IMG/VR virus record: IMGVR_UViG_3300037070_006927
Location: 1 to 39,759 of that record
Reading direction: 5' to 3' (one strand)
Source of the DNA: a virus
DNA length: 39,759 nucleotides
The position numbers were made by a program, and so were the translations under genes. The notes under the pieces were generated by a model. The model worked only from the letters and a program-made list of their open reading frames with translations. It had not been told where the DNA came from and made no database searches. Positions 938-13,490 of the stretch are shown piece by piece (the stretch's first letter is position 1; each line of letters begins with the position of its first letter).

Positions 938-939
938 GT

Positions 940-1179
940 CTACCTCTCCTGCACTACTGCGCTGATCGCCGCCAGCTTGCCACCGTCCAGCGTGTAAAAC
1001 GCGCCGATCATCTGTGAGGCGAACCCGATCCCCCGATACGCTTTCCAGGGATTCGATGTCCGCCTATCGTCACGGTATTTGGTGATGATCCCGATCTCCC
1101 GCCCGTCCAGCACAACCGCATAGGCGATATCCACGCCGGGGATCGTGATCCGTTTCAACTCCGCGCCTGTACCCGCCAT
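940..1179 (-). CDS. Hypothetical protein, 79 aa
   Basis: The start follows the array's conserved start-associated word (AGGAGGGTACAGGG), so the ATG at 1179 is preferred to an open extension to 1212. The sequence looks like a small alpha/beta protein: VVLDGREIGIITKYRDD near residue 23, then NPWKAYRGIGFASQMIGAFYTLDGG. The tail GKLAAISAVVQER is encoded by DNA that also provides the ribosome binding site of the next gene. No family is recognised. The pattern resembles small phage proteins with a repeated beta-strand and W/Y core. Confidence 0.8.
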   Translation of the reverse strand: MAGTGAELKRITIPGVDIAYAVVLDGREIGIITKYRDDRRTSNPWKAYRGIGFASQMIGAFYTLDGGKLAAISAVVQER

Positions 1180-1243
1180 CCCTGTACCCTCCTGCATAAA
1201 CGCCCGATACATACACTCTACACCCGCCGGACATAAATACGCA

Positions 1244-1280
1244 TGATACGCGCCTTACGCGCTCCTGATACGCGCCTTAC
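1244..1280. repeat. 15-bp direct repeat between two array genes
   Basis: TGATACGCGCCTTAC occurs at 1244-1258 and again at 1266-1280. The second copy ends in the stop codon of the next gene. A related word, ATGATACGCGCCTCAC, occurs near 4591. The gap from 1180 to 1276 otherwise holds no open frame. Confidence 0.7.
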
Positions 1281-1540
1281 AGCGCGTTGTAGCGAGCAGC
1301 AATACCCTCTGCACGGAGCTTCGCATCCTCTACCGATGCGAGTAAACGCCCGGATACCCGCCCGGTGTCTACCTCTATCACCATGAGCCACGCGCGGCCC
1401 CGATCCCCGCATGGAATGATCTGCATATCAAGCCCGCCATACTCCGTTATCCACTCCCCGCGTATGGCGGGGTGCCACGTCACGAGATGCGCCGGATCGC
1501 GCATCTGTGCATCCAGGTCCATGCTGTCAAATACTGGCAT
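1277..1540 (-). CDS. Hypothetical protein, 87 aa
   Basis: Begins MPVFDSMDLDAQMRDPAH after the word AGGAGGGTACAGGG. The central segment GEWITEYGGLDMQIIPC is followed by a strand-rich part, GRAWLMVIEVDTGRVSG. The C-terminus, LLASVEDAKLRAEGIAARYNAL, is predicted helical and looks like the repeated DAK-RAE helix of short phage proteins. No family or function is recognised. The 112 bases upstream of the start region hold only pyrimidine-rich non-coding sequence. Confidence 0.8.
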   Translation of the reverse strand: MPVFDSMDLDAQMRDPAHLVTWHPAIRGEWITEYGGLDMQIIPCGDRGRAWLMVIEVDTGRVSGRLLASVEDAKLRAEGIAARYNAL

Positions 1541-1652
1541 CCCTGTACCCTCCTGATAAACGCCCTGTAGCGCGTCCAGTGGCGCGGAGAGAGGCGATAC
1601 CCTGTATACCCGCCCCTCTCTACCCTCTGCGCTCTACGCGCCTCTCACGCCC

Positions 1653-1865
1653 TTACAGCGAACCGTAGTGCTCTTTCCGCGCATGCTCCCAATCCTGTAT
1701 GTCCTGTGCTACCTCTGCTACCTGCTTCTGGATCGCCGTAAGGCGCTGCATCGGTGTCCGGTGTCCGTCCTCTGCGATGGTGCCGATATGGGCAACCGTC
1801 GCCTGTAGCCATCCCATCATGTAGGCATGCTCCAGACGGTACGTTGTGTCTTTGTCGAATTCCAT
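1653..1865 (-). CDS. Hypothetical helical protein, 70 aa
   Basis: The start at 1865 lies directly after the start-associated word. A 43-codon open extension upstream is only the antisense of the spacer and the previous gene. The product is almost entirely helical: RLEHAYMMGWLQATVAHIG, then PMQRLTAIQKQVAEVAQDI, ending EHYGSL. The heptad-like spacing suggests a coiled coil or helical hairpin. No family is recognised. Confidence 0.8.
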   Translation of the reverse strand: MEFDKDTTYRLEHAYMMGWLQATVAHIGTIAEDGHRTPMQRLTAIQKQVAEVAQDIQDWEHARKEHYGSL

Positions 1866-1884
1866 CCCTGTACCCTCCTGTACT

Positions 1885-2256
1885 CTATAGCGCCGGTATA
1901 CGTACCGACTCGGACCATGTGAACGGACCACGGAATACCCGCACCTTATATACCTGCTCCGCGCTGCTCCAGTATCGCGCCGTGATTTCGTCACGCGATC
2001 CGGTACTATTCCAGTAGTGCAGCGTGTACCACGTTCCCATCATGCATGGCACCATATACTCTGTACCGTAGCGGATACCGTTATCCCACGAGCGCACCCG
2101 ATCCCCGTTCTGAATGATGCGCGATGCGAGCAGATCGAGTCGTCGCTGGCGGGTATCGTGTGCGGCGTTGCGTACCTCTAGCTCATGTTCAAACGCGGCG
2201 AACCAATCCGCACCCGATTCCGTTCGCCGGATCGCGTCAATCTGCCATTGCTCCAT
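1885..2256 (-). CDS. Hypothetical protein, 123 aa
   Basis: Begins MEQWQIDAIRRTESGADWF after AGGAGGGTACAGGG. An N-terminal helical part of about 45 residues with RQRRLDLLASRIIQNGDRV is followed by a strand-rich half with many Tyr and Trp (YGTEYMVPCMMGTWYTLHYW, ARYWSSAEQVYKVRVFRG). The layout suggests a small beta-sheet domain behind a helix. No family is recognised. Confidence 0.8.
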   Translation of the reverse strand: MEQWQIDAIRRTESGADWFAAFEHELEVRNAAHDTRQRRLDLLASRIIQNGDRVRSWDNGIRYGTEYMVPCMMGTWYTLHYWNSTGSRDEITARYWSSAEQVYKVRVFRGPFTWSESVRIPAL

Positions 2257-2279
2257 CCCTGTACCCTCCTGTATACGTC

Positions 2280-2540
2280 CTACCAGATACGAAACGAATA
2301 CCCGCCGCTGTCGTCGTGATCCCGTACGTGTCGTACATCCCCGTCGCGGTCCAGGATACCCGGCGCATGCTCATACAGAGCTACCTCGTACTCGTACTGC
2401 TCCCATAGCGACTCCTGATCCTGCTCTAGTGCGAGGGTATACTCCCGCACCTCTTTCCGGTAATTGCTCCGCATCAGGCGATACGCGAGTCGCGCATCGT
2501 GGACGAGGACGGTAGTATGCTCTGCTGTGTACATGCTCAT
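2280..2540 (-). CDS. Hypothetical protein, 86 aa
   Basis: Starts MSMYTAEHTTVLVHDARLAY. The ribosome binding site AGGAGGATA is spaced ten bases from the first ATG and four from the internal third codon, so position 2540 is favoured. The middle (SNYRKEVREYTLALEQDQESLWEQYEYEVAL) is highly charged and helical. The C-terminus is Asp/Arg rich and ends SFRIW. No family is recognised. Confidence 0.75.
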   Translation of the reverse strand: MSMYTAEHTTVLVHDARLAYRLMRSNYRKEVREYTLALEQDQESLWEQYEYEVALYEHAPGILDRDGDVRHVRDHDDSGGYSFRIW

Positions 2541-2570
2541 AGCCGGGTATCCTCCTGTAGAGACGAGGTA

Positions 2571-3314
2571 CTACACCTCGTATACTGTCCGCATCCCCGC
2601 CCAATACCGGCGCAGAGCCGACTCTCTGCGCTGCTCCTTACGCCGCTGTACCCTCTCCTGCTGGACGAGGGACTCGGTATACAACTCCCACAGCACAGCA
2701 CGAACCGCCTCAAATGTCGCATCGTCCAGCGACTCCCATGCGCCCATGCCCGTATGCGTATCAAACAGGGGATTCAGGATCGCCGCTGCACGTTGCCATA
2801 CCTCCGGGAATAGCCGGATCGACTCGTCCGCTCGTCCACAGTACGATCCCGACTCGAACGTGATCGGAGATACACCGTGCTCACGGATCGACGCGCTAGC
2901 CCATACATAGGTACCCTCGTCCGCATCATGTACCCGGCATGAGCGAATCTCTCTCACTGGCGGGAGGAGTCGCATACGCATATTCCGCCGATCCCGCAGA
3001 GGTACCGCCCACGAGAGGAACGACTCCACATCCGCCATACCGCCCGGTAGCACCTCTACCCCCGGCGCATCAGCAGGATCAACGCGCATGGTACGCGCGT
3101 CGCCGCGCTGATGCTGGTACTTCCATCCTTGCCACGTTCCATCGGCGTACTGCTCTACAACCGGGTACCGGCGCGTATACCCGTAGTCGTCCAGACCTAG
3201 AGCGGGAGTACCGCCCACGATGATCCACAAGCGGACAACCTCCGTCGTATCGTCGTCACGGTGTACCCGCAACCGTGTAGCGCATGCCCCCGCCTCTAGT
3301 ACTTCTATTCTCAT
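2571..3314 (-). CDS. Hypothetical protein, 247 aa
   Basis: One of the longest array genes. The start at 3314 (MRIEVLEAGACATRL) follows AGGAGGGTACGGGC; the 79 open codons upstream are ignored. Residues 1-85 are strand-rich with a WQGWKYQHQRGDA motif. Residues 95-190 contain SFLSWAVPLRDRRNMRMRLL and GSYCGRADESIRLFPEVW. The C-terminal 60 residues form a basic helix (LVQQERVQRRKEQRRESALRR) typical of a coiled coil or nucleic-acid contact. No family is recognised. Confidence 0.8.
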   Translation of the reverse strand: MRIEVLEAGACATRLRVHRDDDTTEVVRLWIIVGGTPALGLDDYGYTRRYPVVEQYADGTWQGWKYQHQRGDARTMRVDPADAPGVEVLPGGMADVESFLSWAVPLRDRRNMRMRLLPPVREIRSCRVHDADEGTYVWASASIREHGVSPITFESGSYCGRADESIRLFPEVWQRAAAILNPLFDTHTGMGAWESLDDATFEAVRAVLWELYTESLVQQERVQRRKEQRRESALRRYWAGMRTVYEV

Positions 3315-3397
3315 GCCCGTACCCTCCTGTATGTGTTCTGTATCGGCTCTCCCGCCCGTTACGGGAGAGCACATACCGTTATCCCATAATCGCCGCG

Positions 3398-3763
3398 CTA
3401 GCTCTGCGCGTACGTCTCCGCTTTCAGCCACGAGTAAAACGCCGCTGTAAATCCGTGCCGCCGCATCTGGTACAGGTCTGAATCGGAGAGATTCGTGTGC
3501 CGGATGTCGCCTGTAGCGGGATTGAATTCCCACACGTTGATCGGATCGCACCCGTCCGGCGCGTTATGATTGTGTACCCGGAGGTAGATTTCCTGTGTCC
3601 CTGTGCTCACCTCCCGCACATGGTACACGCGGATATCCCGCAACGTATTACCGAATCCGCGCATAGTAGAGCGGTCAAAGAAATGTCTACCCGCTGCGAT
3701 ATTGATCCGTTTCACGTCCTGTAGCGTGTAGCGCCGATGCTGTACCGATCCTGATGTGCTCAT
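3398..3763 (-). CDS. Internal-start product of the fused frame, 121 aa
   Basis: The ATG at 3763 has its own start-associated word (CAGGAGGATACCAGC), as good as those of stand-alone genes. The product begins MSTSGSVQHRRYTLQDVK. It has a strand-rich centre with DIRVYHVREVSTGTQEIYL and DPINVWEFNPATGDIRH, and ends in a helix, DLYQMRRHGFTAAFYSWL. No family is recognised. It is probably the ancestral second gene of the pair and is expected to be made in excess over the fusion. Confidence 0.7.
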   Translation of the reverse strand: MSTSGSVQHRRYTLQDVKRINIAAGRHFFDRSTMRGFGNTLRDIRVYHVREVSTGTQEIYLRVHNHNAPDGCDPINVWEFNPATGDIRHTNLSDSDLYQMRRHGFTAAFYSWLKAETYAQS

Positions 3764-3979
3764 GCTGGTATCCTCCTGTAGAGCCGGAACCGGGGTACCC
3801 TCTTTCGGTACCCGGCGCTTAATGAGCCTGTAGATCCCCTGTCCAGAGGCGCGATACTCCCGGATATCCGCCCGTGCCTCTGCGCGGGTATCGTACGCCG
3901 CGCAATCCTCCCATCCGAACCGCGATCCGAAACACCCTTGTATGGTCCACTCGTCGCGCGTTTTGCGTACGTATCCCAT
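3398..3979 (-). CDS. In-frame fusion of two array genes, 193 aa
   Basis: The start at 3979 (MGYVRKTRDEWTIQGCFG) follows AGGAGGGTATACAG. Residues 1-62 match a common small phage protein pattern: WEDCAAYDTRAEARADIREY, then YRLIKRR, a family that normally ends soon after KRR. Here no stop appears. The frame continues through PKEGTPVPA and through the ribosome binding site of the next gene, read as LQEDTS, into that gene's own ATG at 3763. Translation can therefore give a 193-residue fusion and a separate 121-residue product. A one-base shift would end the first gene at a nearby TAA, so a sequencing or recent frameshift is an alternative. Confidence 0.7.
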   Translation of the reverse strand: MGYVRKTRDEWTIQGCFGSRFGWEDCAAYDTRAEARADIREYRASGQGIYRLIKRRVPKEGTPVPALQEDTSMSTSGSVQHRRYTLQDVKRINIAAGRHFFDRSTMRGFGNTLRDIRVYHVREVSTGTQEIYLRVHNHNAPDGCDPINVWEFNPATGDIRHTNLSDSDLYQMRRHGFTAAFYSWLKAETYAQS

Positions 3980-4038
3980 CTGTATACCCTCCTGTAGTGC
4001 GGGTACCATGCGGTACCCGCGTATCCGTCCGTCCAGTA

Positions 4039-4524
4039 TCAGATCAACGTAGAGCGGTTATTCTTTACATGTACCCGCCCGGACCACGGGTTAACCCATA
4101 CCCGCCGCATCGACTCATCGTCGTATCCAAGGATCGACTCCGGACTGTCACCGATCATCGCCGCGTCTACCTGTCCGTGTGCCGCATCAAGGAGATCCCC
4201 CGGCTGTACATTGAACCCGCACCCGTCTATCAGCACGAGTCGGTACGCGGGGAATTGTGCGGCCAGCTCACGCTGTAGCATCCACTGGACCGGGCCGGTA
4301 GTCGCGCTGTACTTCGTGGTATTTACTACCACCATCTCCCATACCGAATCCACAACGGCGATACACGTCGAATAGGACCAGTAGACGCCGGGAGTACCCT
4401 CTACCGTGTAGAGCTTTGCTCCCTTGCGCCCCTCTCCCATAGCCGGGATCGATCCGTCCTGAATCCGTGCCGCTACGTCCGCACTCACTACCCGCACATC
4501 CGCGAACCGTGGTGATCGTGCCAT
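4039..4524 (-). CDS. DUF8033-like small phage protein, 161 aa
   Basis: Residues 48-81 hold the pattern VYWSYSTCIAVV, a spacer, then NTTKYSATTGPVQW. I recall this SYxTxVA plus KYSxTT arrangement from small phage and mobile-element proteins named DUF8033; function unknown. The usual His of KYSxTTSxH is replaced here by GPVQ. A second, more canonical copy is encoded at 5851-6093. The N-terminal 45 residues contain ADVAARIQDGSIPAMG. The start at 4524 follows AGGAGGGATACGGGT and lies 34 bases below a TATAAT promoter element. Confidence 0.75.
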   Translation of the reverse strand: MARSPRFADVRVVSADVAARIQDGSIPAMGEGRKGAKLYTVEGTPGVYWSYSTCIAVVDSVWEMVVVNTTKYSATTGPVQWMLQRELAAQFPAYRLVLIDGCGFNVQPGDLLDAAHGQVDAAMIGDSPESILGYDDESMRRVWVNPWSGRVHVKNNRSTLI

Positions 4525-4563
4525 ACCCGTATCCCTCCTGTATAAAAAATGTATCTACCCCTG

Positions 4564-4598
4564 ATTATAGACCATTGGATATAAACGCTAATGATACG
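4564..4598 (-). promoter_or_regulatory. Leftward promoter candidate with perfect TATAAT
   Basis: On the minus strand TATAAT occupies 4569 to 4564 in a locally AT-rich spacer. The best -35 position, 16-18 bases upstream, is only TTAGCG-like. No extended -10 TG is present. Transcription would start near 4557, about 33 bases before the DUF8033-like gene. The 129-base gap 4525-4653 contains no gene. Confidence 0.45.
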
Positions 4599-4653
4599 CG
4601 CCTCACAATTCCCTGATACGACGGTGATAAACGCGCAAGGTAAACGCCGTCCG

Positions 4654-4872
4654 CTACTTTGCCTGTACCCGCGCTATAAACGCCTGTAGCGCCTCTACAG
4701 CCGCCGACTCGGTATCGTGTGCAGAGCTGGTCACGTATTGCCCGATCCCGCTCTGCTGGACTATCGCGCTACGCCGCCATACCATCAGCGCATAGCGCGA
4801 TCCGATCCTGTCTACATATGACCATACTGTAGGTAAACGCCGCGCAAGGTCCGACTCTCTACCGTGTCGCAT
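4654..4872 (-). CDS. Hypothetical protein, 72 aa
   Basis: The start at 4872 (MRHGRESDLARRLPTVWSYV) is chosen because CGGAGGGG lies seven bases upstream; an in-frame ATG seven codons earlier lacks a site. The second half (SSAHDTESAAVEALQAFIARV) is a predicted amphipathic helix. No family is recognised. The leader can fold in two exclusive ways that expose or hide the ribosome binding site; see the hairpin at 4902-4940. Confidence 0.75.
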   Translation of the reverse strand: MRHGRESDLARRLPTVWSYVDRIGSRYALMVWRRSAIVQQSGIGQYVTSSAHDTESAAVEALQAFIARVQAK

Positions 4873-4901
4873 GCTATACCCCTCCGATTCCATCAGGCAA
4901 T

Positions 4902-4940
4902 GAGCGGAGGGTATCGTACTCGTGTACTCCCTCCGTGCTC
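4902..4940 (-). promoter_or_regulatory. Leader hairpin that can compete for a ribosome binding site
   Basis: In the minus-strand RNA, GAGCACGGAGGG (4940-4929) pairs with CCCTCCGCTC (4911-4902) around a 17-base loop. The same CCCTCCG segment, extended as ATACCCTCCG, is also complementary to the ribosome binding site CGGAGGGGTAT of the next gene. The two pairings exclude each other, as in a translational attenuator. No U-run follows, so it is not a typical terminator. Confidence 0.4.
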
Positions 4941-4945
4941 CCGGA

Positions 4946-5110
4946 TCATCCCCGGCCCATAGCGCGCGCCATGTCGATTTGACTCGCCCATGCGTACATC
5001 ATGTACCCTCCACGGATGCGCCGGAATATACCCGGCGCAATTCCGATCCCTCTCTCAAGGTACCTATCACGAGCGAACCGTGATACCTTGCCACATGTAA
5101 ACGACTCCAT
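4946..5110 (-). CDS. Hypothetical basic protein, 54 aa
   Basis: The start at 5110 (MESFTCGKVSRFARDRYLER) follows CAGGAGGGGTAGGT, whose TAG is the stop of the upstream gene two bases away. The protein is basic, with GIFRRIRGGYMMYAWASQID, and ends in MARAMGRG. It looks like a short helix-loop-helix, but no family is recognised. A longer frame to 5164 overlaps the upstream gene and is not preferred. Confidence 0.75.
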   Translation of the reverse strand: MESFTCGKVSRFARDRYLERGIGIAPGIFRRIRGGYMMYAWASQIDMARAMGRG

Positions 5111-5112
5111 AC

Positions 5113-5430
5113 CTACCCCTCCTGTAGCACGGCGATAGCCGCTAGCAATTCCCCGGCTGTACACGCAAAGTACAGATCCCGTGTGCGGATGTATGCATTG
5201 TGTCCGCTCTGCGCTAGAACACTCATGCGGATACCTGTTATACGTTTACCCGCTAGCGTGTTCATTGTGTGCCATGTAACCCCGATCCCGTACTCGTCGC
5301 AGAGCCGATCCGTAGCCGCACACAATGACGGTACCCCTAGCACATTGCAGAGATCCCGCGCATTGTGGATCGGCCATTGGTCCACCGGATCGCCATTCCG
5401 GATCGCCGTCTGTAGTCCGTACTGAACCAT
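5113..5430 (-). CDS. Hypothetical protein, 105 aa
   Basis: The start at 5430 (MVQYGLQTAIRNGDPVDQW) follows AGGGAGGGTAGCAGG. The middle region ARDLCNVLGVPSLCAATDRL is hydrophobic and helical. A strand-rich part, GKRITGIRMSVLAQSGHNAY, follows. The last helix (TAGELLAAIAVLQEG) ends inside the ribosome binding site of the next gene. The balanced alpha/beta composition suggests a folded globular protein, but no family is recognised. Confidence 0.75.
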   Translation of the reverse strand: MVQYGLQTAIRNGDPVDQWPIHNARDLCNVLGVPSLCAATDRLCDEYGIGVTWHTMNTLAGKRITGIRMSVLAQSGHNAYIRTRDLYFACTAGELLAAIAVLQEG

Positions 5431-5446
5431 CCTGCTACCCTCCCTA

Positions 5447-5758
5447 TTAATCGTGTTCATATTCCCATCCTCCCCATATACCCGTAGCGAAGTCGTACGA
5501 CTGATGTACTTCGGTACCCGGTAGCTCTGTACCATCCGCAAGATACGATCTCCCCCAACACCGTAACCATAGAGTCGGCGTACCGTCGTACTCCTGATAC
5601 GATATTGATCCGCGTACGTTCTGCTGCTCATAGCGCCAATGCATATTTACCGCGCTACTACCATGCATGTACGTTTCATGCTCCGCGCTACGACTCCATA
5701 TTCCTAACGCGTCTAGGCGCGCCTGAATCGCCGCTAGTATCTGCTCCGACTCGATCAT
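5447..5758 (-). CDS. Hypothetical protein, 103 aa
   Basis: Two candidate ATGs follow GGAGGGT; the one at 5758 (MIESEQILAAIQARL) has normal spacing and is chosen. Residues 1-25 are helical. The rest is rich in Trp and Tyr (MHWRYEQQNVRGSISYQEYD, LWLRCWGRSYLADGTELPG) and ends DFATGIWGGWEYEHD, a pattern like small beta-sheet phage proteins with WxGW motifs. A comparable WQGWKYQ motif occurs in the product of 2571-3314. Function unknown. Confidence 0.75.
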   Translation of the reverse strand: MIESEQILAAIQARLDALGIWSRSAEHETYMHGSSAVNMHWRYEQQNVRGSISYQEYDGTPTLWLRCWGRSYLADGTELPGTEVHQSYDFATGIWGGWEYEHD

Positions 5759-5763
5759 CCTCA

Positions 5764-5823
5764 TACCCTCCTGTACCGTACGTATGCTGTATTGCATACG
5801 CCGCGCATGTACCCCGGAGGGTA
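5764..5823 (-). promoter_or_regulatory. Leader hairpin burying a ribosome binding site
   Basis: In the minus-strand RNA TACCCTCC (5823-5816) is perfectly complementary to GGAGGGTA (5771-5764), the ribosome binding site of the gene starting at 5758. Between them CGTATGC (5800-5794) pairs with GCATACG (5787-5781) around a six-base loop. The whole spacer 5759-5850 can thus fold into one long structure that hides the site. It may be thermosensitive or relieved by a protein; this is inference from pairing alone. Confidence 0.45.
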
Positions 5824-5850
5824 CAGCGTAGCGTCTGAAATAGAGCCGGA

Positions 5851-6093
5851 CTACTCTACCGCTGTACCGTCCGCCAGTTGTGCGAACCATGCCGGATCGC
5901 GCTGTTCTGCGCGTCGTCCGGCGATCCATGCGTTGATGTGCTTTGACGTGGTAGAGCTGTATTTCTTATTGGTCCGGTAGTACGTACCCTGTACGCGTGC
6001 TGCTACCGGAGTCGAATACGAAAACAGGATCTGTGCATGCGGGAGTGTGAGTAGTGTTTGATTCGATCCCAACTGTACGACTGATAACGCCAT
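5851..6093 (-). CDS. DUF8033-like small phage protein, 80 aa
   Basis: A compact version of the family also seen at 4039-4524. It has QILFSYSTPVAARV (residues 21-34), then YYRTNKKYSSTTSKHINAW (38-56), with the expected His after KYSxTTS. The C-terminus, AEQRDPAWFAQLADG, is helical. The start at 6093 follows AGGAGGGATAACACA. The family is widespread in phages and mobile elements as far as I recall, without a known activity. The assignment is from memory of the motif and was not checked against a database. Confidence 0.8.
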   Translation of the reverse strand: MALSVVQLGSNQTLLTLPHAQILFSYSTPVAARVQGTYYRTNKKYSSTTSKHINAWIAGRRAEQRDPAWFAQLADGTAVE

Positions 6094-6097
6094 TGTG

Positions 6098-6274
6098 TTA
6101 TCCCTCCTGTACTGCTGTAGCGCCAGTATCGCGCCACGCATTGATAGCGCGCTGGTACTGATTCATAGCCGTCTGTAGCGCGTCAAAGTGTGTAAAGGAC
6201 GGATCAGCACGGAATAGCTGATACGCTATATCTAGTGCCTGTCTCATAGCCGGGAGTCCGTCTACCCTTGCCAT
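6098..6274 (-). CDS. Hypothetical helical protein, 58 aa
   Basis: Reading the minus strand gives MARVDGLPAMRQALDIAYQL, a short turn DPSFTHFDALQTAMNQY, then QRAINAWRDTGATAVQEG and TAA. CGGAGGGTAGAGCT precedes the ATG. The last codons VQEG come from the start-associated word of the next gene, four bases away. The protein is two or three helices. The first 13 bases overlap the end of the upstream gene. No family is recognised, but spacing and start signal match the other array genes. Confidence 0.8.
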   Translation of the reverse strand: MARVDGLPAMRQALDIAYQLFRADPSFTHFDALQTAMNQYQRAINAWRDTGATAVQEG

Positions 6275-6558
6275 AGCTCTACCCTCCGATCCGCACCGAT
6301 GATCCGCAACGGGAGTCCCCGGAGTACTGGACGGTTAACCCATTGTCGGCACACGTCAAACGATGCAAAACGGCACGTAAAATACCGATCCGTCCGGAGC
6401 TTTACGCATAGTTCACACTCCGATCCCGCCTGATGCATCGACTCGCCGCTGTACCTCGTAATCGTGATTACCTCGCACTCCCGCGCATGTCGCAGTAACC
6501 ATCCTAGATTCTTTACCTCTGTACATGTACCGTCTGTCCGTGTAACGTATGCCGCCAT
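6262..6558 (-). CDS. Hypothetical protein, 98 aa
   Basis: Starts MAAYVTRTDGTCTEVKNLGW after CAGGAGGTATACAGGC. The segment NLGWLLRHARECEVITI resembles small phage proteins that share an NLGWLLRH motif. Five cysteines are present (GSECELCVKLRTDRYFTC, then FDVC), possibly a metal site. The C-terminus, NRPVLRGLPLRIIG, is basic. The stop overlaps the next start region by 13 bases. Confidence 0.78.
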   Translation of the reverse strand: MAAYVTRTDGTCTEVKNLGWLLRHARECEVITITRYSGESMHQAGSECELCVKLRTDRYFTCRFASFDVCRQWVNRPVLRGLPLRIIGADRRVELWQG

Positions 6559-6622
6559 GCCTGTATACCTCCTGTGACGAGGTACCCGATCCAACCGTAC
6601 CGGGTACCTATCCCATAATCCG

Positions 6623-7279
6623 CTATCCGAACCGTTTACCCGACTCTGTAAAGGTGTATTCGTTTGCCTCTATACTTTCGTCTACCGACTCGTTGCTGTT
6701 CTGGTACTCGTACTCCGATTCCAAACTGGAGTAGATCCAATCTGCAAATTCCCGGAGTACCTGTACTACCTCGTATCCGTCCGAATCGGTATCACGCTCA
6801 TACGAGGTATAGAAATCGTCGTCATGCCGGGATACCGTAATTGCCATACTCCCGCTATGCTGGTACCGTCCGCTCTGCGATACATGCGCAGAGAGGGAAT
6901 AGAAATTCCGGCGCTGTACCCGGTACAGGCGATCAGCGATCCCGTGTAGCTCTGTGTCCTGTGGGAATTCAGCACGGACAGCCGCACACGATCCGCGCTT
7001 GTACTGGTACTCTCCCTCCCATGATGCGCCGTCCCCTTGCGACGCGAATCCGCTGAACCATATACGAGGGGAATACCCGGTACTCCCTCCCATAGTTTTA
7101 TGCGACTTTGTACCGATCTCAATCCCTAGCAGCGTTGCGGCTGTAGTCGCGGCCTCATACACGAACTCGTACCAGTCCGAGTCGGTACATACTCCCTCTC
7201 TGTACCATTCCCTAGCGCGATCCTTTGCGGACTCGTCCAGTTCGCTGAACTGGTACACCTTTGTCTCTACTACGTGCAT
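6623..7279 (-). CDS. Phage protein of the family often named antitoxin of TA stability system
   Basis: Starts MHVVETKVYQFSELDESAKD after AGGAGGGTACGGGT. The N-terminus VYxFxELxxxAKxxAxxWYREG, followed by a segment SDWYEFVYEAATTAATLLGI and then IWFSGFASQGDGASWEGEY near residue 90, matches a family common in phages and plasmids. It is often labelled antitoxin of toxin-antitoxin stability system, a name I consider unproven. The C-terminal third is very acidic (ESEYEYQNSNESVDES). No partner toxin is obvious next door. Confidence 0.8.
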   Translation of the reverse strand: MHVVETKVYQFSELDESAKDRAREWYREGVCTDSDWYEFVYEAATTAATLLGIEIGTKSHKTMGGSTGYSPRIWFSGFASQGDGASWEGEYQYKRGSCAAVRAEFPQDTELHGIADRLYRVQRRNFYSLSAHVSQSGRYQHSGSMAITVSRHDDDFYTSYERDTDSDGYEVVQVLREFADWIYSSLESEYEYQNSNESVDESIEANEYTFTESGKRFG

Positions 7280-7302
7280 ACCCGTACCCTCCTGTATCAC
7301 GA

Positions 7303-7614
7303 TCAATAATTCCGTGCTGCAAAGGACTCCCACGAGTCCATGTGTACACAATCGCTGTAGTCCGGCTCTGTGTCGTCTACCGGACACATATACAGCGGTC
7401 TATCATGCTCGTCCGTGCCGACACACACGAGCGTACCCGCGTCTATCAGCCGTCGCATATGGGGAGGGTTAACCCGTCCCTCATACACATCACGAGCGGA
7501 GTACAGACAATAGTGAGTCTGTCCGCTGTAGGTATGCCATTCCGTCACATAGGCGATCCGTGTGCCGTGCTCGTCACAGCGGACAATGATCCGATCTACC
7601 TCTGCGTTAAGCAT
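7303..7614 (-). CDS. Hypothetical protein, 103 aa
   Basis: Starts MLNAEVDRIIVRCDEHGTRI. The ATG overlaps the upstream stop as TGATG, so translation is coupled; an AAGGGG lies a little further up. The pattern is strand-rich (IAYVTEWHTYSGQTHYCLYS), followed by HMRRLIDAGTLVCVGTDEHD and an acidic C-terminus ending ESFAARNY. No family is recognised. Confidence 0.75.
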   Translation of the reverse strand: MLNAEVDRIIVRCDEHGTRIAYVTEWHTYSGQTHYCLYSARDVYEGRVNPPHMRRLIDAGTLVCVGTDEHDRPLYMCPVDDTEPDYSDCVHMDSWESFAARNY

Positions 7615-7826
7615 CAGAATCCGATCCCCTTAAGCGCCGTGATATCCTTATGTGCCGCTGTCCTGTCCAGTACCCGGAATACCCGATCCCACATACGCGC
7701 CATAGCAGGATCATCCCATGTAGACCGGACGTGCTCCGCTTTATCCGCGCATACGTCCGCTAGCATCCGGAGTACTCCCGCCATACCGATCCGATCTACC
7801 AGCATCTCTAGATCCGCCTGATCCAT
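7614..7826 (-). CDS. Conserved small helical phage protein, 70 aa
   Basis: Starts MDQADLEMLVDRIGMAGVLR after AGGAGGGTATAGGA. The arrangement LVDRxGMAGVLRMLADVCADKAEHVRSTW matches a short helical protein I have seen annotated as hypothetical in many phages and plasmids; its role is not known. It is the first gene left of the gene-free repeat region. Confidence 0.8.
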   Translation of the reverse strand: MDQADLEMLVDRIGMAGVLRMLADVCADKAEHVRSTWDDPAMARMWDRVFRVLDRTAAHKDITALKGIGF

Positions 7827-8714
7827 TCCTATACCCTCCTGTATACGTGCCGTCCGGCTGTCCTATCCCATAACCGAACCTGATAGTATCCTACTCCTTA
7901 ACCCGCCGATCCGATCTGATAGAGAGGTGATATTCTCCTGATACGTAGCATCACAGTCCTGTATGGGATAAACGCGGGATAAACGCGGGATTCTGTCCAG
8001 TCTGATCGCGGGATGATCGCCGGGTACCCTCGTGTGTACCCGTCCGGTACCCTCCGTGTACCCTCCGCTGTACCGGGTACCCTCGTGATAAACGCGGGAT
8101 AAACGCGGGATACCCTCCGCGATAAACGCGGGATAAACGCGGGAATCCTCGTCCGGTACCCGCGTGTCCGGTACCCGGTACCCTCGTCCGTCTGGACAGC
8201 CGGGTACCCTCCTGTCCGGACGAGGTACAGAGCCGGGTACCCTCGTCCGTCCAGTGGACGAGGGACAGAGCACGGACCATACCCGGCTGTCTGGTACCCT
8301 CGTCCGCTGTACCCTCCTGTCCGGCTGTCTGTGTATGAGGGTATGAGGGTAGAGCCGGGTATTGTGTCCAGTGACAGGATTCGTCACAGTCCGGAGCTTT
8401 TTAATGTGACGTGCTCTGTCACAGAGGGACAGCACAGAGCCGGGTAGAGACGAGGTAGAGCCGTCCGGTATGGACTGGACGAGGGACAGCACAGAGCACG
8501 GTACAGCCGGACAGAGCCGGGTACAGTACCTCGTGTGTCCGGACAGCGGACAGCACGATACAGCCGGGTATAGTCCGGCTGTACCTCGTGTGTAGCTGTA
8601 CTGGTCTACAGCTCTACCATACGGTACCGTGTCTCTGTCCGTGTGCGGGAATCACAGTACCGGGTATGAGGTACCCGGTACTGTGTCCACTGGACGGTAT
8701 GAGCGTATGTCAAT
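7827..8714. repeat. Gene-free, word-repetitive region
   Basis: No supported gene. The sequence is built from a few words used over and over on both strands: GGTACCC, CCGGGTA, ACCCTCGTCC, GACGAGG, ACAGAGC, GTCCGG. Tandem copies of the 11-mer GATAAACGCGG form three doublets at about 7966-7991, 8086-8111 and 8121-8144. Two dyads of the form GTGAC-N7-GTCAC lie at 8371-8387 and 8406-8422. Long open frames here encode only low-complexity peptide and lack start signals. Confidence 0.8.
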
Positions 8715-9032
8715 CTAGATCGTGTCCGTATCATAGAACGGGTAGAGCCGGGTAGCATCTTTGTAGGTATAGGGTACAGAGCCGGAGTACCCGTATATCG
8801 CTGTGTATTCGGCATTCCCTGTCCGCACAAAGAGTCCACGCATGTCATTATCACGCATGTACCGCTGTGCTGTCTGTGACAGGTACGATCCTGCTATGCT
8901 GTCCGGATTCCGCGTGTCCGTATCCTGTGAGTCTGTGACAAGGGACCAGTCCGGACCATTAAAGAATTCTGATCCTAGGCATACATGTACTGGTAGTCCG
9001 GCTCTGTCCGTCCGTTTCTTTCGTGCTGTCAT
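8715..9032 (-). CDS. Hypothetical protein, 105 aa
   Basis: Starts MTARKKRTDRAGLPVHVCLG after AGGAGGGATACGGAC. The first ten residues are basic. The segment SIAGSYLSQTAQRYMRDN looks helical, and the C-terminus GNAEYTAIYGYSGSVPYTY is rich in Tyr. No family is recognised. It is the first gene right of the repetitive region, and a hairpin lies 64 bases upstream of its start. Confidence 0.75.
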   Translation of the reverse strand: MTARKKRTDRAGLPVHVCLGSEFFNGPDWSLVTDSQDTDTRNPDSIAGSYLSQTAQRYMRDNDMRGLFVRTGNAEYTAIYGYSGSVPYTYKDATRLYPFYDTDTI

Positions 9033-9095
9033 GTCCGTATCCCTCCTGTAATGCCTCTGTGACGTGCTGTACTGCTCTGTACGGCTCTGTAGCGC

Positions 9096-9125
9096 ATACA
9101 GCCGGGTATTTGTACCCGGCTGTAT
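9096..9125. repeat. Intergenic 13-bp-stem hairpin
   Basis: ATACAGCCGGGTA (9096-9108) and its exact complement TACCCGGCTGTAT (9113-9125) flank the loop TTTG. It lies just after the stop of the gene at 9135-9728 and 64 bases upstream of the start at 9032. No U-run follows on the minus strand. It may terminate or process RNA, or act like the extended start-associated inverted repeats of some phages. Confidence 0.7.
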
Positions 9126-9134
9126 CAGCGTGTC

Positions 9135-9728
9135 TTATAGCGTGTCTGTAGCTGTAGCTGTCCGTACCTCGTCCGTGTCCCTGTCCGTCCGTCCGTCTGT
9201 GGTCCGGACAGCGATTCCGGAATCGTACCAGTGTCCACAGGGACACAGATACGGGTACGGATTCAGGGAATCGGCTCTGTCCAGACGATTCGATCCACAG
9301 GAGGGACACACGAGTACAGCGTAGAAGATGTGTGCACCATTCCACAGTACAGAGCGAATCCCGTTGATCCACGCGGAATCCCATGTATAGGTACCGTCCG
9401 GCTGTACCAGACGGACTCTGTACCCTGTGTACCCGGCTGTCCGCATGGTGATTCCCTCGTGTGTCCGGCTGTCTACGTAGAATTCAGGCATGTCTACAGC
9501 GGACAGATACCCGGTATCGTATAGTCCGTGTTTATACCCGATCTGTACCCTGTCCGGAGTACGTTTCCATGTCTTGACACTGGTAATCCGTCCACGCATG
9601 GCGGTACCGTCCGCATTAACGCGGGTACCGTGATAGAGCATGTTACCTACACAGAGGTACCGTGCATTGTCCGGCTGTAGCTGTACCATACCGTCTAGTC
9701 TGTCCGTCCGTCCGATTCTTTGTACCAT
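9135..9728 (-). CDS. Hypothetical protein with C-terminal zinc ribbon, 197 aa
   Basis: Starts MVQRIGRTDRLDGMVQLQPD after AGGAGGGATACGGAC. Residues 25-85 are strand-rich (RGRITSVKTWKRTPDRVQIG). Residues 141-165 hold CPSC and CPC around SNRLDRADSLNPYPYL, a zinc-ribbon arrangement. The last 30 residues are Arg/Asp/Thr repeats encoded by the local GTCCGT words, and may be a low-complexity extension. No family is recognised; a nucleic-acid or protein-binding role is possible. Confidence 0.75.
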   Translation of the reverse strand: MVQRIGRTDRLDGMVQLQPDNARYLCVGNMLYHGTRVNADGTAMRGRITSVKTWKRTPDRVQIGYKHGLYDTGYLSAVDMPEFYVDSRTHEGITMRTAGYTGYRVRLVQPDGTYTWDSAWINGIRSVLWNGAHIFYAVLVCPSCGSNRLDRADSLNPYPYLCPCGHWYDSGIAVRTTDGRTDRDTDEVRTATATDTL

Positions 9729-9769
9729 GTCCGTATCCCTCCTGTATTGTGTGCTCTGTCCGATCTGTT

Positions 9770-9822
9770 ATGAGCACGTCACAGAGCACAGAGGTACACA
9801 CGAGGTACCTATTGTGCTCTGT
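9770..9822. repeat. Intergenic hairpin with shared 18-bp flank
   Basis: ACAGAGCACA (9781-9790) pairs with TGTGCTCTGT (9813-9822); nested inside, AGGTAC (9792-9797) pairs with GTACCT (9805-9810). The left edge includes ATGAGCACGTCACAGAGC (9770-9787), which recurs exactly at 10777-10794. The stem begins 53 bases upstream of the start at 9728. Confidence 0.7.
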
Positions 9823-9833
9823 ACCTGTCCGTA

Positions 9834-10181
9834 TCAGACGGCTGTACCTCGTGATAGACGACTCTGTACAATGGACGTTCTTTCCTCGTCTGATAGAAGC
9901 ATGCGCATCCACAGGAATCGCCATGAAAGAATGAAATAGCATGCTGCTACCTGTCCGTACAGCACACTGTACCGTCTGTAGAGCCGGGTACTATTCCGTA
10001 TCATGTACCTGTGCTGTCTGTAATCGCTCATACGTTCGCCGTAATAGTCCGATTCTCCACACCATAGACCACGCATGCCATTATTGTATTGTGTCCAGTA
10101 CTGTCTATCCCATAGGATCGGCTGTAGCACGTGCTGTCTATGTGTCCGTTTCATACCTGTCCGTCCGATGTACCCGATCAT
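9834..10181 (-). CDS. Hypothetical basic protein, 115 aa
   Basis: Starts MIGYIGRTGMKRTHRQHVLQ. The ATG overlaps the upstream stop as ATGA and has AGGAGGGTACGGGA in front. The protein is basic and rich in Tyr, Trp and Arg (RQYWTQYNNGMRGLW, then YYGERMSDYRQHRY). The last third, VAACYFILSWRFLWMRML, is hydrophobic enough for a membrane segment, though it is encoded by atypical DNA and may be a read-through tail. No family is recognised. Confidence 0.65.
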   Translation of the reverse strand: MIGYIGRTGMKRTHRQHVLQPILWDRQYWTQYNNGMRGLWCGESDYYGERMSDYRQHRYMIRNSTRLYRRYSVLYGQVAACYFILSWRFLWMRMLLSDEERTSIVQSRLSRGTAV

Positions 10182-10501
10182 TCCCGTACCCTCCTGTGTC
10201 TACGCGGGATTCGTTTCACGTGCGGCATATCTGTCTCTGATAGGTAGAGACAGTGATTCCCGCCATTGTAGTACTCGTCTAGATATCCCTCTGATTCCAA
10301 TTCCTGTATGCTGTCCGCGTCTAGAAAATACCCGATCCAGCCCATAGATTCCGCGTGGTCTATAGCAGCGTCTATAGCGTCTGATTCTGTGGATTCGTCC
10401 ACTATGATCGGACCACTGATAGCAGACAACCATACCGCGTAGAGCCGTCCGTAGAATACCTGTCCCTCGTCCGTGTCCGGTACATTGTAGATAATGCTCA
10501 T
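10178..10501 (-). CDS. Hypothetical acidic protein, 107 aa
   Basis: Starts MSIIYNVPDTDEGQVFYGRL after AGGAGGGATACGGGA; the 51 open codons before it are ignored. The protein has ESDAIDAAIDHAESMGWIGY and DSIQELESEGYLDEYYNGG, a strongly acidic surface of the kind found in DNA-mimic and other phage host-takeover proteins. The last 15 residues are basic and encoded by the next gene's start-associated word (RRHRRVRE). Function unknown. Confidence 0.75.
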   Translation of the reverse strand: MSIIYNVPDTDEGQVFYGRLYAVWLSAISGPIIVDESTESDAIDAAIDHAESMGWIGYFLDADSIQELESEGYLDEYYNGGNHCLYLSETDMPHVKRIPRRHRRVRE

Positions 10502-10539
10502 TCCCGTATCCCTCCTGTATGTATCCCTATTCCGTCCGT

Positions 10540-10734
10540 CTACGGGTATATGAATCCGCATGCTGTAGCAGCGGACTCTATAACGCGTAGTGCCTCTGTC
10601 CGATTCCGGCTGTAGACAATAGCCACTTCGTACCCGGTATTCAGGGAATCGCATTCATTCCCTGTAGCTGTCCAGACGGACAGAATCACAGAGCACACCA
10701 TGTCTACCAGATCAGAGAATCCATACCGTACCAT
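10540..10734 (-). CDS. Hypothetical protein, 64 aa
   Basis: Starts MVRYGFSDLVDMVCSVILSV after AGGAGGGTACGGGA. A strand GYEVAIVYSRNRTEALRVI follows, and the end AATACGFIYP is hydrophobic. The alternation of helix and strand suggests a small alpha/beta fold. A hairpin sits 54 bases upstream of the start. No family is recognised. Confidence 0.75.
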   Translation of the reverse strand: MVRYGFSDLVDMVCSVILSVWTATGNECDSLNTGYEVAIVYSRNRTEALRVIESAATACGFIYP

Positions 10735-10776
10735 TCCCGTACCCTCCTGTAGTGTCCGTGTGCATCATTCCAAATA

Positions 10777-10814
10777 ATGAGCACGTCACAGAGCCGGACT
10801 GTACCCGGCTCTGT
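10777..10814. repeat. Intergenic 10-bp-stem hairpin with shared 18-bp flank
   Basis: ACAGAGCCGG (10788-10797) and CCGGCTCTGT (10805-10814) are perfectly complementary around a seven-base loop. The flank 10777-10794 is identical over 18 bases to 9770-9787. It lies between the stop at 10824 and the start at 10734. Confidence 0.7.
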
Positions 10815-10823
10815 ATCTGATCA

Positions 10824-11003
10824 TTAGACGGGTATGTATAGACGGAATTCCCACGCGCTATATGTACCGTGTGCTATTTTCAATTGGTATAGCCATGCGG
10901 TACCGATCCATGTGGAGCGGATAATTATTCCCTGTCCGCGTCCGAAAGAATCGGACCACTGTACCGATTGTCCGATTGTGAATAATGGCTCTGTCCGTTT
11001 CAT
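10824..11003 (-). CDS. Hypothetical SH3-like small protein, 59 aa
   Basis: The minus strand reads MKRTEPLFTIGQSVQWSDSF, then GRGQGIIIRSTWIGTAWLYQ, then AWEFRLYIPV and TAA. AGGAGGGATAGGGAC precedes the ATG. The pattern FTIGQSVQW...GxGIIIRSxWIG...YQL resembles small barrel proteins that read a G-Q-x-V start and a glycine turn, seen often among phage proteins. That fold assignment is inference. Confidence 0.78.
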   Translation of the reverse strand: MKRTEPLFTIGQSVQWSDSFGRGQGIIIRSTWIGTAWLYQLKIAHGTYSAWEFRLYIPV

Positions 11004-11044
11004 GTCCCTATCCCTCCTGTATGTATCCCTCGTCCGTCCGTGCT

Positions 11045-11839
11045 CTACTCGTCCGTGTCCCTATTCCGGTATGCCACTAACGCGCGTATGAATTCCGTCC
11101 GTAATTCCCGCACACGGTACCGGAGTACAGCGGACACGGTATCCTGTCCACGTACTGTAGCATCGTGCTCTACCCGTCCAGTCCGGACCAGACGATCATA
11201 CAGATCACAGAGCACAGAGGGTACCTGTAGCTGTACAGCACAGAGCACACGATCATAATCGTATCGTGCATCAGAACGTAGATTCCGTGCCTCAAAGTAC
11301 GGATTCCATGTGTCCGGCTCTACCCGATCTACAGCCGATTCGCATGCAGACAGACGACTGTGGACAGTGTACAGAGACAGGAATGTATCAGAGTCCATAG
11401 TCCGTGCATTGTCCAGATCATACCGTGCTGTCTCTACCTCCTGTCCGATCTGTAGCATGCTCTGTAGAGCCATACGGACGGCTGTACCGTGTGTAGACGA
11501 GGGTACAGCACAGTACCGCTGATAGAGCGAATCGTAGTCCGTCCGTGCTGTCTGGTATGCATACTCCAGATCACGGACACGCTGGACCAGTGGATCAGGA
11601 GTACCACAGAGCCACGAGGGTATTCCGCTGTCCGATTCCATGTCCAGACGATCTACGAGGATATCTGCGGCCACTGTGATAGCGTCTAGAATGTTAATGC
11701 AGTCGTCCAGCATTGCGCGCGATACATTCCCGCGATTCATGATTCCCTGCGTGTACCCGATCCATACGCTGATCTGTCCAGACAGAGTCTCTATGCTCTG
11801 TCTACCTGATACCGTCCGTACCTCGTCCAGATTGTACAT
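11045..11839 (-). CDS. Internal-start helical protein, 264 aa
   Basis: The ATG at 11839 (MYNLDEVRTVSGRQSIETLS) follows AGGAGGGACGAGGT. An additional in-frame ATG at 11890, also with a start word, would add MITTDGRVQLSLQEGRG. The product is helical throughout: GNVSRAMLDDCINILDAITV, QRVRDLEYAYQTARTDYDSL, GQEVETARYDLDNARTM. A coiled-coil rod or helical bundle is likely. The C-terminus has YRVRELRTEFIRALVAYRNR. No family is recognised. Confidence 0.72.
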   Translation of the reverse strand: MYNLDEVRTVSGRQSIETLSGQISVWIGYTQGIMNRGNVSRAMLDDCINILDAITVAADILVDRLDMESDSGIPSWLCGTPDPLVQRVRDLEYAYQTARTDYDSLYQRYCAVPSSTHGTAVRMALQSMLQIGQEVETARYDLDNARTMDSDTFLSLYTVHSRLSACESAVDRVEPDTWNPYFEARNLRSDARYDYDRVLCAVQLQVPSVLCDLYDRLVRTGRVEHDATVRGQDTVSAVLRYRVRELRTEFIRALVAYRNRDTDE

Positions 11840-12154
11840 ACCTCGTCCCTCCTGTAGTGATAGCTGTACCCGTCCGTCTGTAGTGATCATTCCCGTATCC
11901 TCCTGTATGAGCGTCTGATCCCATGATCTGAGACAATGCGGACAGCGTACCTGTCCCTCCGTCCGTAGACTGTGGTATGCCACTGTGCATACCGTGCATA
12001 CAGCCGTCTGTACCGTGCTGTCCGGCTGTACTGATGCCACTGTGTAGCAGTACCAGCAATGCCACTGTGATTCACGAGGTACATACAGCACACGGACTAC
12101 CTTTCCGTGCTCTGGACATGTACCGTACCTCTGTAGTCTGTCCGTCCCTGTCAT
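11045..12154 (-). CDS. In-frame fusion: zinc domain plus helical protein, 369 aa
   Basis: The start at 12154 (MTGTDRLQRYGTCPEHGK) follows AGGAGGATACGGGA. Residues 1-76 carry C13, H16 and the pairs 33/36, 53/56 and 71/74, ending RCPHCLRSWDQ, where such a protein would normally stop. The frame instead continues as TLIQEDTG into a second ATG (11890), runs 17 codons to a third (11839), and goes on for 264 residues. Both internal starts carry a full start-associated word. The sequence thus predicts a fusion plus separately started products. A lost stop codon is the simplest origin. Confidence 0.7.
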   Translation of the reverse strand: MTGTDRLQRYGTCPEHGKVVRVLYVPRESQWHCWYCYTVASVQPDSTVQTAVCTVCTVAYHSLRTEGQVRCPHCLRSWDQTLIQEDTGMITTDGRVQLSLQEGRGMYNLDEVRTVSGRQSIETLSGQISVWIGYTQGIMNRGNVSRAMLDDCINILDAITVAADILVDRLDMESDSGIPSWLCGTPDPLVQRVRDLEYAYQTARTDYDSLYQRYCAVPSSTHGTAVRMALQSMLQIGQEVETARYDLDNARTMDSDTFLSLYTVHSRLSACESAVDRVEPDTWNPYFEARNLRSDARYDYDRVLCAVQLQVPSVLCDLYDRLVRTGRVEHDATVRGQDTVSAVLRYRVRELRTEFIRALVAYRNRDTDE

Positions 12155-12190
12155 TCCCGTATCCTCCTGTAGTGTGTCTGTATCACGATG

Positions 12191-12238
12191 ATAGACACGT
12201 CACAGAGCACAGAGGGTACCGTACCTCCTGTGTTCTGT
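12191..12238. repeat. Intergenic hairpin with a decayed start-associated word
   Basis: ACAGAGCACAG (12202-12212) pairs with CTGTGTTCTGT (12228-12238) with one G-T position. The flank 12191-12208 differs at two bases from the 18-bp flank shared by 9770 and 10777. On the minus strand the stem contains CACAGGAGGTACGG followed by no start codon, like a start word whose gene is gone. It lies 48 bases upstream of the start at 12154. Confidence 0.6.
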
Positions 12239-12244
12239 ATGTAC

Positions 12245-12442
12245 CTATGATCGATTCTTTGTGACGCGCTGGTAGCTGTACATGGTCCGCTGTAGACTCT
12301 TGAAATTGTCCGCACTAGGATTCTTTCGAAAGTCCGCTGTACTGGTATTGAACCATTCGCGGATGATTCGCCGTGCCTCTTTAATTCCGTAGACTGTGAC
12401 GAGGGTATCGACGAGGGTATCAGCGTACTCTGTCTCTGTCAT
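12245..12442 (-). CDS. Hypothetical helical protein, 65 aa
   Basis: Starts MTETEYADTLVDTLVTVYGI. ACAGGAGGTACCCGGAC precedes the ATG, which overlaps the upstream stop as ATGA. It continues KEARRIIREWFNTST, FRKNPSADNFKSLQRTMYSY. It is a basic helical protein of the size of a small DNA- or RNA-binding factor, but no HTH signature is clear. No family is recognised. Confidence 0.75.
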   Translation of the reverse strand: MTETEYADTLVDTLVTVYGIKEARRIIREWFNTSTADFRKNPSADNFKSLQRTMYSYQRVTKNRS

Positions 12443-12666
12443 GTCCGGGTACCTCCTGTGTAGACCACTGTGAACCGTACACACTCATATTTTCGGCTGT
12501 AATTCCGGACCAGTCCGTATGCACGTTCTAGAGTGTCCGTCCGTGTCCCTAGATCGATCCATGTCCCTGTGTCCAGACAAAGCGCCTGTAGCTGGTACAT
12601 GCATGTCATGTCCGGCTCTACCCGATCCTGTGTCCAGTGTGTTACTCGTCCGATCCACTTAAGCAT
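12439..12666 (-). CDS. Hypothetical protein, 75 aa
   Basis: Starts MLKWIGRVTHWTQDRVEPDM after AGGAGGGACAGGGAC. A strand-rich body with YQLQALCLDTGTWIDLGTRT leads into a helix TLERAYGLVRNYSRKY and a final strand RFTVVYTG. This beta-beta-beta-alpha-beta layout is typical of small phage proteins of unknown role. The final residues GGTRT are encoded by the next start word. Confidence 0.75.
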   Translation of the reverse strand: MLKWIGRVTHWTQDRVEPDMTCMYQLQALCLDTGTWIDLGTRTDTLERAYGLVRNYSRKYECVRFTVVYTGGTRT

Positions 12667-12886
12667 GTCCCTGTCCCTCCTGTGTCCGTACCCGATTCCG
12701 TGCCTGTGCTGTCCACGATCTACGCATGCTCTGTAGGCACGAGGTACACACAAAGTACACAGCGTCTACAGCGTGATTGTGCAGCGTGGTAGATGCCTGT
12801 CCGTGCTCTGTCCGGATATCGCATGTATGACCGTCCGTGTGTCTGGACAGTGTTACATGGTCCGGCTGTCCGATGTACCGTTTCAT
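12659..12886 (-). CDS. First gene of the leftward array, 75 aa
   Basis: Starts MKRYIGQPDHVTLSRHTDGH after AGGAGGGATACGGGA. It contains CTSCLQSMRRSW and several His and Cys (HTCDIRTEHG), so metal binding is possible. The C-terminus RTQEGQGHA comes from the start word of the next gene and overlaps that gene by eight bases. The promoter candidate at 12954-12980 would make this the promoter-proximal gene of the whole array. Confidence 0.75.
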   Translation of the reverse strand: MKRYIGQPDHVTLSRHTDGHTCDIRTEHGQASTTLHNHAVDAVYFVCTSCLQSMRRSWTAQARNRVRTQEGQGHA

Positions 12887-12953
12887 TCCCGTATCCCTCC
12901 TGTGTCCGTGTGCTGTCCGTCCGTCCGGACCAAAGAACAAATTGACCATTCGC

Positions 12954-12980
12954 ATCATAATATGCGCGGGAGTATGTCAA
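12954..12980 (-). promoter_or_regulatory. Leftward promoter candidate of the small-gene array
   Basis: On the minus strand TTGACA (12980-12975) is followed after 15 bases by TATGAT (12959-12954), with TATTAT overlapping at 12 bases. The -35 is perfect, the spacing short. Transcription would begin about 60 bases upstream of the first array gene at 12886. Confidence 0.45.
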
Positions 12981-13379
12981 TGGGGAGATTACATGATAAT
13001 TGCATGAGATTCTCCTGATCCCATAGATTCCGTCTATGAGTCCGGACGATAGAGCCATAGGTAGAGCCTATGAATATGGCATTACAGAGCCATATACAGC
13101 ACAGGAGGGTAGAGCACAGGAGGTAGAGCCGGACCACAGAGCACAGGGTAGAGCCATGCGGACAGGGTAGTACCTCGTCCGGCTGTAGATGGTCCGGACT
13201 GTGGACAGGAGGGACGAGGGACCAGCACAGGGACGAGTACCGGGTACCCGATGGACACACGAGATTCCCTAGTTCAGACTGCGCAGAATGGACCAGAATC
13301 GATGGAATGGACGAATCGCGACACGTGGATCGTCCAGACGCCATATGCCCTGTAACGCGTCCAGAGACACGCTCATGCG
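12981..13379. other. Gene-free control region, word-rich
   Basis: No supported gene. From 13060 to 13260 the plus strand repeats AGAGC, CACAGGAGG, GTAGAGCC and GTCCGGAC words. These include ribosome-binding-site-like ACAGGAGGG at about 13101 and ACAGGAGG at about 13115, with no start codon behind them. An open minus frame from 13533 exists but has no start signal and consists of spacer sequence. Confidence 0.6.
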
Positions 13380-13472: not shown

Positions 13473-13490
13473 CAGACCAGGAGTATAACC

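Follow-up and report, generated by a model that had tools for sequence, protein, structure and literature searches.

Why would a phage place one word, longer than a Shine-Dalgarno (SD) sequence, directly before the start codons of a whole block of genes? The question is raised by the left third (1-13 kb) of a 39,759-base virus record, IMGVR_UViG_3300037070_006927 (hereafter the window, meaning the whole stretch analysed), which comprises a series of small leftward genes. The initial annotation had claimed a start-associated sequence, exceeding an SD in length, before most starts from 1179 to 12886. We identified the consensus [T/C]ACA-GGAGG-(G)[A/G]TAC[G/A]GG-N-ATG at 27 of the 30 leftward starts in this interval, occupying 16 to 19 letters before the start codon across a block of about thirty small genes. 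The claim thus stood for most starts, but three (6274, 5430 and 4872) carried ordinary SDs only, and the exact 15-mer ACAGGAGGGTACGGG was present in just four copies (starts 10734, 10181, 7279 and 3314). From its sequence features, we give an even chance to the motif being an extended translation-initiation signal, akin to the start-associated sequences (SAS) of other phages, that would set the non-structural genes of the leftward operon apart as a single translation regulon.

Conservation and placement of the word

At all 30 leftward starts the start codon was ATG and GGAGG sat 7-10 nt 5' of it, accounting for 30 of the 47 minus-strand GGAGG occurrences in 0.94-12.96 kb. Exact ACAGGAGG preceded 25 starts and occurred at four further minus-strand places within the region, with 34 copies across the whole window versus 0.94 expected, whilst TACAGGAGG preceded 20 starts and had zero off-start copies on the minus strand of the region. 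A one-base length polymorphism (GTAC versus GATAC) was frequent, giving a GGAGG-ATG spacing of 8 or 9 at most sites. The borders of the motif were abrupt, with conservation absent at -1 before ATG and 5' of TACA. Where the motif overlapped an upstream coding sequence (CDS), the word was retained in all three frames, and the constraint therefore acts on the nucleotide word, not on the encoded peptide. As had been claimed, the word preceded unrelated genes: the downstream proteins were mutually unrelated bar one short weak match, which aside, paralogy of the downstream genes was ruled out.

We compared the flanks with 300 simulations from an order-5 Markov model, for which this region had served as training sequence after masking of the sites. 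The 6 nt upstream of GGAGG held 5.31 bits (simulated maximum 1.57) and the 8 nt downstream held 5.42 bits (simulated maximum 3.33), bearing out a conserved sequence that extends beyond the SD. A leave-one-out position-specific scoring matrix that omitted the ATG, applied to both strands of the whole window at a cut-off score of at least 16, recovered 24 known starts, with 5 hits elsewhere; the word was evidently not as dense away from starts as at them. The array was confined to the non-structural leftward operon in one orientation, apart from a few off-start copies. Genes of the rightward arm, which carries TerL (30.1 kb), portal, a possible protease and the major capsid gene, displayed ordinary SDs with a spacing of 4-5 and no flank information, in agreement with the claim that other operons lack the word. 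Ordinary SDs without flank information were also found in the comparison sequences G001-G004, Lumi, Lana, G007, G008, G012 and a Kouleothrix contig. After composition correction, the flank information of the leftward cluster ranked first of 44 strand sets from comparison loci (7.87 bits versus a mean of 1.71 for the others, sd 1.35, max 6.98). The known SAS phage Adephagia reached 3.3 on the same flank score, scored over all its starts, and its 16 SAS words were recovered directly.

The fixed position relative to ATG, the flank information above the order-5 model and the sharp edges argue for an extended initiation signal, as do the retention of the word in three frames, the unrelated downstream proteins and the motif-free rightward genes. 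The 30 sites before leftward starts are given below with the off-start copies, which were few but real, and the word-biased island in which they lie; all sites are on the minus strand unless marked plus.

12887-12904, minus: motif before ATG 12886 (CACAGGAGGGATACGGGA)
12667-12684, minus: motif before ATG 12666; core in upstream CDS, frame 2
12443-12460, minus: motif before ATG 12442; core in upstream CDS, frame 0
12155-12171, minus: motif before ATG 12154
11891-11907, minus: motif before in-frame internal ATG 11890 of open reading frame (ORF) 12154-11045
11840-11856, minus: motif before in-frame internal ATG 11839 of ORF 12154-11045
11004-11021, minus: motif before ATG 11003
10735-10751, minus: motif before ATG 10734, exact 15-mer
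10502-10519, minus: motif before ATG 10501
10182-10198, minus: motif before ATG 10181, exact 15-mer; core in upstream CDS, frame 1
9729-9746, minus: motif before ATG 9728
9033-9050, minus: motif before ATG 9032
7827-7843, minus: motif before ATG 7826
7280-7296, minus: motif before ATG 7279, exact 15-mer; gene 7279-6623, phrog_5162
6559-6576, minus: motif before ATG 6558
6275-6291, minus: weak site before ATG 6274 (GATCGGAGG, ordinary SD)
6094-6111, minus: motif before ATG 6093; contains stop codon of gene 6274-6098
5759-5775, minus: motif before ATG 5758
5431-5447, minus: weak site before ATG 5430 (ATAGGGAGG, ordinary SD)
5111-5126, minus: motif before ATG 5110; contains stop codon of gene 5430-5113
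4873-4889, minus: weak site before ATG 4872 (AATCGGAGG, ordinary SD)
4525-4542, minus: motif before ATG 4524
3980-3996, minus: motif before ATG 3979
3764-3780, minus: motif before in-frame internal ATG 3763 of ORF 3979-3398
3315-3331, minus: motif before ATG 3314, exact 15-mer
2541-2559, minus: motif before ATG 2540, spacing 10
2257-2273, minus: motif before ATG 2256, GTACAGGG variant
1866-1882, minus: motif before ATG 1865, GTACAGGG variant
1541-1557, minus: motif before ATG 1540, GTACAGGG variant
1180-1196, minus: motif before ATG 1179, GTACAGGG variant
8201-8215, minus: off-start copy ACAGGAGGGTACCCG, noncoding array
8306-8320, minus: off-start copy ACAGGAGGGTACAGC, noncoding array
12217-12231, minus: off-start copy ACAGGAGGTACGGTA, intergenic gap
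13101-13123, plus: two opposite-strand copies ACAGGAGGGTAGAGCACAGGAGG, divergent noncoding region
13205-13212, plus: opposite-strand ACAGGAGG copy, divergent noncoding region
940-13730, no strand: word-biased island holding the motif; right edge by eye; strongest at 8.0-13.5 kb, weaker leftward

Local word bias and recombination

The motif could be a by-product of local word bias if the favoured TAC, ACA, GTA, CGG and GGA of the 1-13.7 kb island surrounded any SD there, an explanation we consider improbable. The bias itself was strong in all three codon positions: in genes at 8.7-13 kb, TAC and ACA reached 2.85x and 2.74x expected, whilst AAG, GTT, AAC and TTG were down to 0.16-0.26x. It was also graded along the leftward arm, with a two-strand depletion index of 0.21 at 9-12 kb, 0.43 at 6-9 kb and about 0.55 at 0-6 kb, and GGAGGGTAC was found five times off-start on the minus strand, all of which speaks for a by-product. 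Much of the right arm and most relatives had an index near 1, with exceptions of 0.55-0.8 in some right-arm and G012 windows. However, a model trained on the region itself topped out at 3.3 of the 5.4 bits downstream and 1.6 of the 5.3 bits upstream, the ATG-blind scan returned most of its hits at starts, and TACAGGAGG stayed at starts throughout the region. The local word bias is real and contributes, but it accounts for part of the motif only.

Across 1-13730, the word bias affected coding and noncoding DNA on both strands and faded leftward from 8-13.5 kb. AA/TT-containing triplets other than AAT/ATT were depleted, as were GCC/GGC, and TAC, ACA, CGG and GGA were enriched; neither most of the right arm nor most relatives showed this bias.

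More doubtful still is the recombination word proposed in the initial annotation; on this reading the repeat at gene junctions would supply the homology through which small genes are spread and shuffled. Short repeats do lie at junctions of small orphan genes, the word is retained at in-frame fusions (11890, 11839 and 3763), and starts 11003 and 10501 have sequence in common 5' of the motif. Against shuffling stand the abrupt end of conservation at -1 and at TACA, the fixed distance to ATG and the lack of any grouping of motif variants along the gene order (Mantel r -0.07, p 0.19); shuffled junctions were seen in no relative. Spread by recent local copying was rejected because the variants showed no locality. 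The two minus-strand ORFs with internal in-frame motif starts, 12154-11045 (ATGs 11890 and 11839) and 3398-3979 (ATG 3763), are perhaps fused genes or nested starts.

Possible readers of the word

The 16S rRNA tail in the genome of the nearest cellular relative was the standard GGATCACCTCCTTTCT, and conserved bases of the motif lay outside its pairing potential. Duplex energy with this tail averaged -11.5 kcal/mol at the sites versus -11.2 kcal/mol for AGGAGG alone, whilst a U after AGGAGG, which would lengthen pairing, was present at 2 of 30 sites. Extended anti-SD pairing was rejected, since it accounts for AGGAGG only.

No conserved hairpin was found (stem sum 85 versus a permuted mean of 90.8), and display of the SD in a hairpin loop (UAC-AGGAGG-GUA) was rejected, UAC/GUA occurring in 8 of 30 sites, not above permutation. 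Sites of the CsrA/RsmA type have an ANGGA core in a hairpin loop; the motif has CAGGA, the wrong core, without a conserved stem, and this candidate was also rejected. Start regions were weakly structured (-6.1 versus -11.6 kcal/mol), with GGAGG more accessible at starts than at non-start sites. Upstream of the motif, repeats like those of extended SAS (ESAS) were not found, shared words were not above control and stems were barely longer than control (5.6 versus 5.0). No Rfam family matched, and a sigma-70-like promoter scan gave no excess.

The main rival is a strong ribosome-binding site (RBS) acting in cis only. Selection for high early expression would here have combined an SD close to the optimum with an ACA enhancer and a favoured unstructured spacer, and no dedicated factor would be involved. 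We regard this as rather unlikely, whilst noting that it fits the strong AGGAGG, the 8-9 nt spacing, the uniform use of ATG and the weakly structured start regions. ACA upstream of the SD is moreover a known enhancer in enterics, raising translation of yifK and dppA in Salmonella with no need for strict positioning (PMC3879156). The motif likewise has ACA 5' of the SD, but immediately adjacent to GGAGG and linked to the spacer word. Against a cis-only RBS, no cis role is known for the spacer word TAC[G/A]GG, the motif is missing from the structural genes despite their need for high expression, and the sites do not maximise anti-SD pairing.

The weakly structured starts, accessible GGAGG, pairing energy similar to that of AGGAGG by itself and ACA enhancement in Salmonella are also consistent with an extended initiation signal. 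In such a signal AGGAGG would pair with 16S rRNA in the usual manner, the upstream ACA would enhance translation, and something besides the anti-SD would recognise the spacer word. The reader, if a trans factor exists at all, would most likely be a phage or host RNA-binding factor, or a small RNA, and it might raise or gate translation of the whole gene class jointly. A factor reading the spacer word is tentatively favoured over the cis-only RBS.

Several points weigh against the extended signal. The trinucleotides enriched in the island (TAC, ACA, GTA, CGG, GGA) are the motif's own, and some of the conservation in the spacer may come from this bias. A single contiguous protein site does not sit easily with a distance from GGAGG to TAC that varies by one base, and a candidate RNA-binding protein was not identified, with weak zinc-ribbon hints only. 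The motif array was present in none of the relatives found by TerL (42-52 % identity in IMG/VR, 44 % in Kouleothrix); the records are fragmentary, so this absence is weak evidence.

A bolder and, in our view, improbable extension is that the word flanking the SD is read by a phage-encoded or recruited factor, through which the translation of about thirty early genes is switched jointly, that the same factor (or its avoidance elsewhere) shaped the two-strand vocabulary of the 13-kb arm, and that the noncoding off-start copies are decoys. If a factor does read the word, it would constitute an operon-wide translational switch; if the ribosome alone reads it, the SD-AUG spacer would have a sequence-specific role. 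The many natural variants provide material for asking which bases outside the SD core matter.

Known start-associated sequences, relatives and genomic setting

SAS are in general conserved words overlapping the RBS just before many start codons, as seen here at 27 of 30. They were described in cluster K mycobacteriophages together with ESAS, their role unknown there (Pope et al. 2011, PMC3203893), and a 2024 study reported putative promoters in ESAS whilst leaving the SAS role open (PMC11373665). In common with cluster K SAS, the motif is an asymmetric, SD-containing word just 5' of ATG, in non-structural genes of nearly one orientation, with conserved bases unable to pair with 16S rRNA. In keeping with the suggestion of an analogous system with a different word, the consensus differs outside the SD core (GGGATAGGAGCCC in cluster K versus (T)ACAGGAGG(G)RTACRGG here). 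There are 11-19 copies in cluster K versus 27 here, and the cluster K word is nearly invariant whereas that described here varies by one base in length. About half of cluster K SAS genes have upstream inverted repeats (ESAS, 17-bp), in contrast to none found here. The present motif is further set apart by lying within a word-biased island.

Microbacterium cluster EF phages carry ten copies of a 13-bp SAS, GGGAAAGGACCCC, at RBS positions, role unknown (PMC7302621). This too is a conserved word at the RBS, but the word is another one, the host is Actinobacterial and ESAS are linked to it. Citrobacter phage Mordin has a 26-bp start-proximal repeat before 8 small hypothetical genes (PMC4611695), similar to the motif in having an SD-like core before small genes but with another, longer word and fewer copies. 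By analogy, the motif is probably of the same kind as the cluster K, cluster EF and Mordin sequences, with its own word and independent of them. SAS have lacked an assigned function since they became known in 2011, and the motif adds another case with a distinct word; its 27 natural copies and lack of upstream repeats make the SAS question separable from the ESAS question.

The closest cellular terminase match to TerL (44 %) was in Kouleothrix aurantiaca (Chloroflexota), a hint, though no proof, that the host belongs to the Chloroflexota. No close relatives were found by DNA, by single TerL or leftward protein, or by exact word, and one 5.8-kb contig was identical to positions 32389-38170 of the window. 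Homologues of the leftward genes were not found in the relatives G001-G004, fragmentary records in which absence is weak evidence. Four contigs matching the exact word were rejected, being AT-rich phages with ordinary SDs and without the array.

Within the window, GCGTTTAT was present in 11 copies versus 0.83 expected, spanning 1196-8140 and all on the minus strand. Six of these formed tandem 11-bp repeats at 7968-8140, within an 840-bp apparently noncoding array. The divergent noncoding region 12960-13880 contained three ACAGGAGG copies on the opposite strand, a DnaA-box-like word, TTATCCACA, near 13390, and a 31-nt inverted repeat at 13586-13649; it is a possible origin or control region.

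SDs in hairpin loops were observed on the minus strand of two other records. In IMGVR_UViG_3300002242_002756 (12.4-15.4 kb, reverse-complement coordinates) the stems differed yet were complementary (for example TATACT-GAGG-AGTATA, TTATTCT-GAGG-AGAATAA, AATATC-GAGGA-GATATT and TTATG-AGGAG-CATAA). Similar SD hairpins were present in IMGVR_UViG_3300033146_000857 (13.3-17.1 kb, reverse-complement coordinates), comprising a repeated AATCT-GAGG-AGATT and TATCT-GAGG-AGATA.

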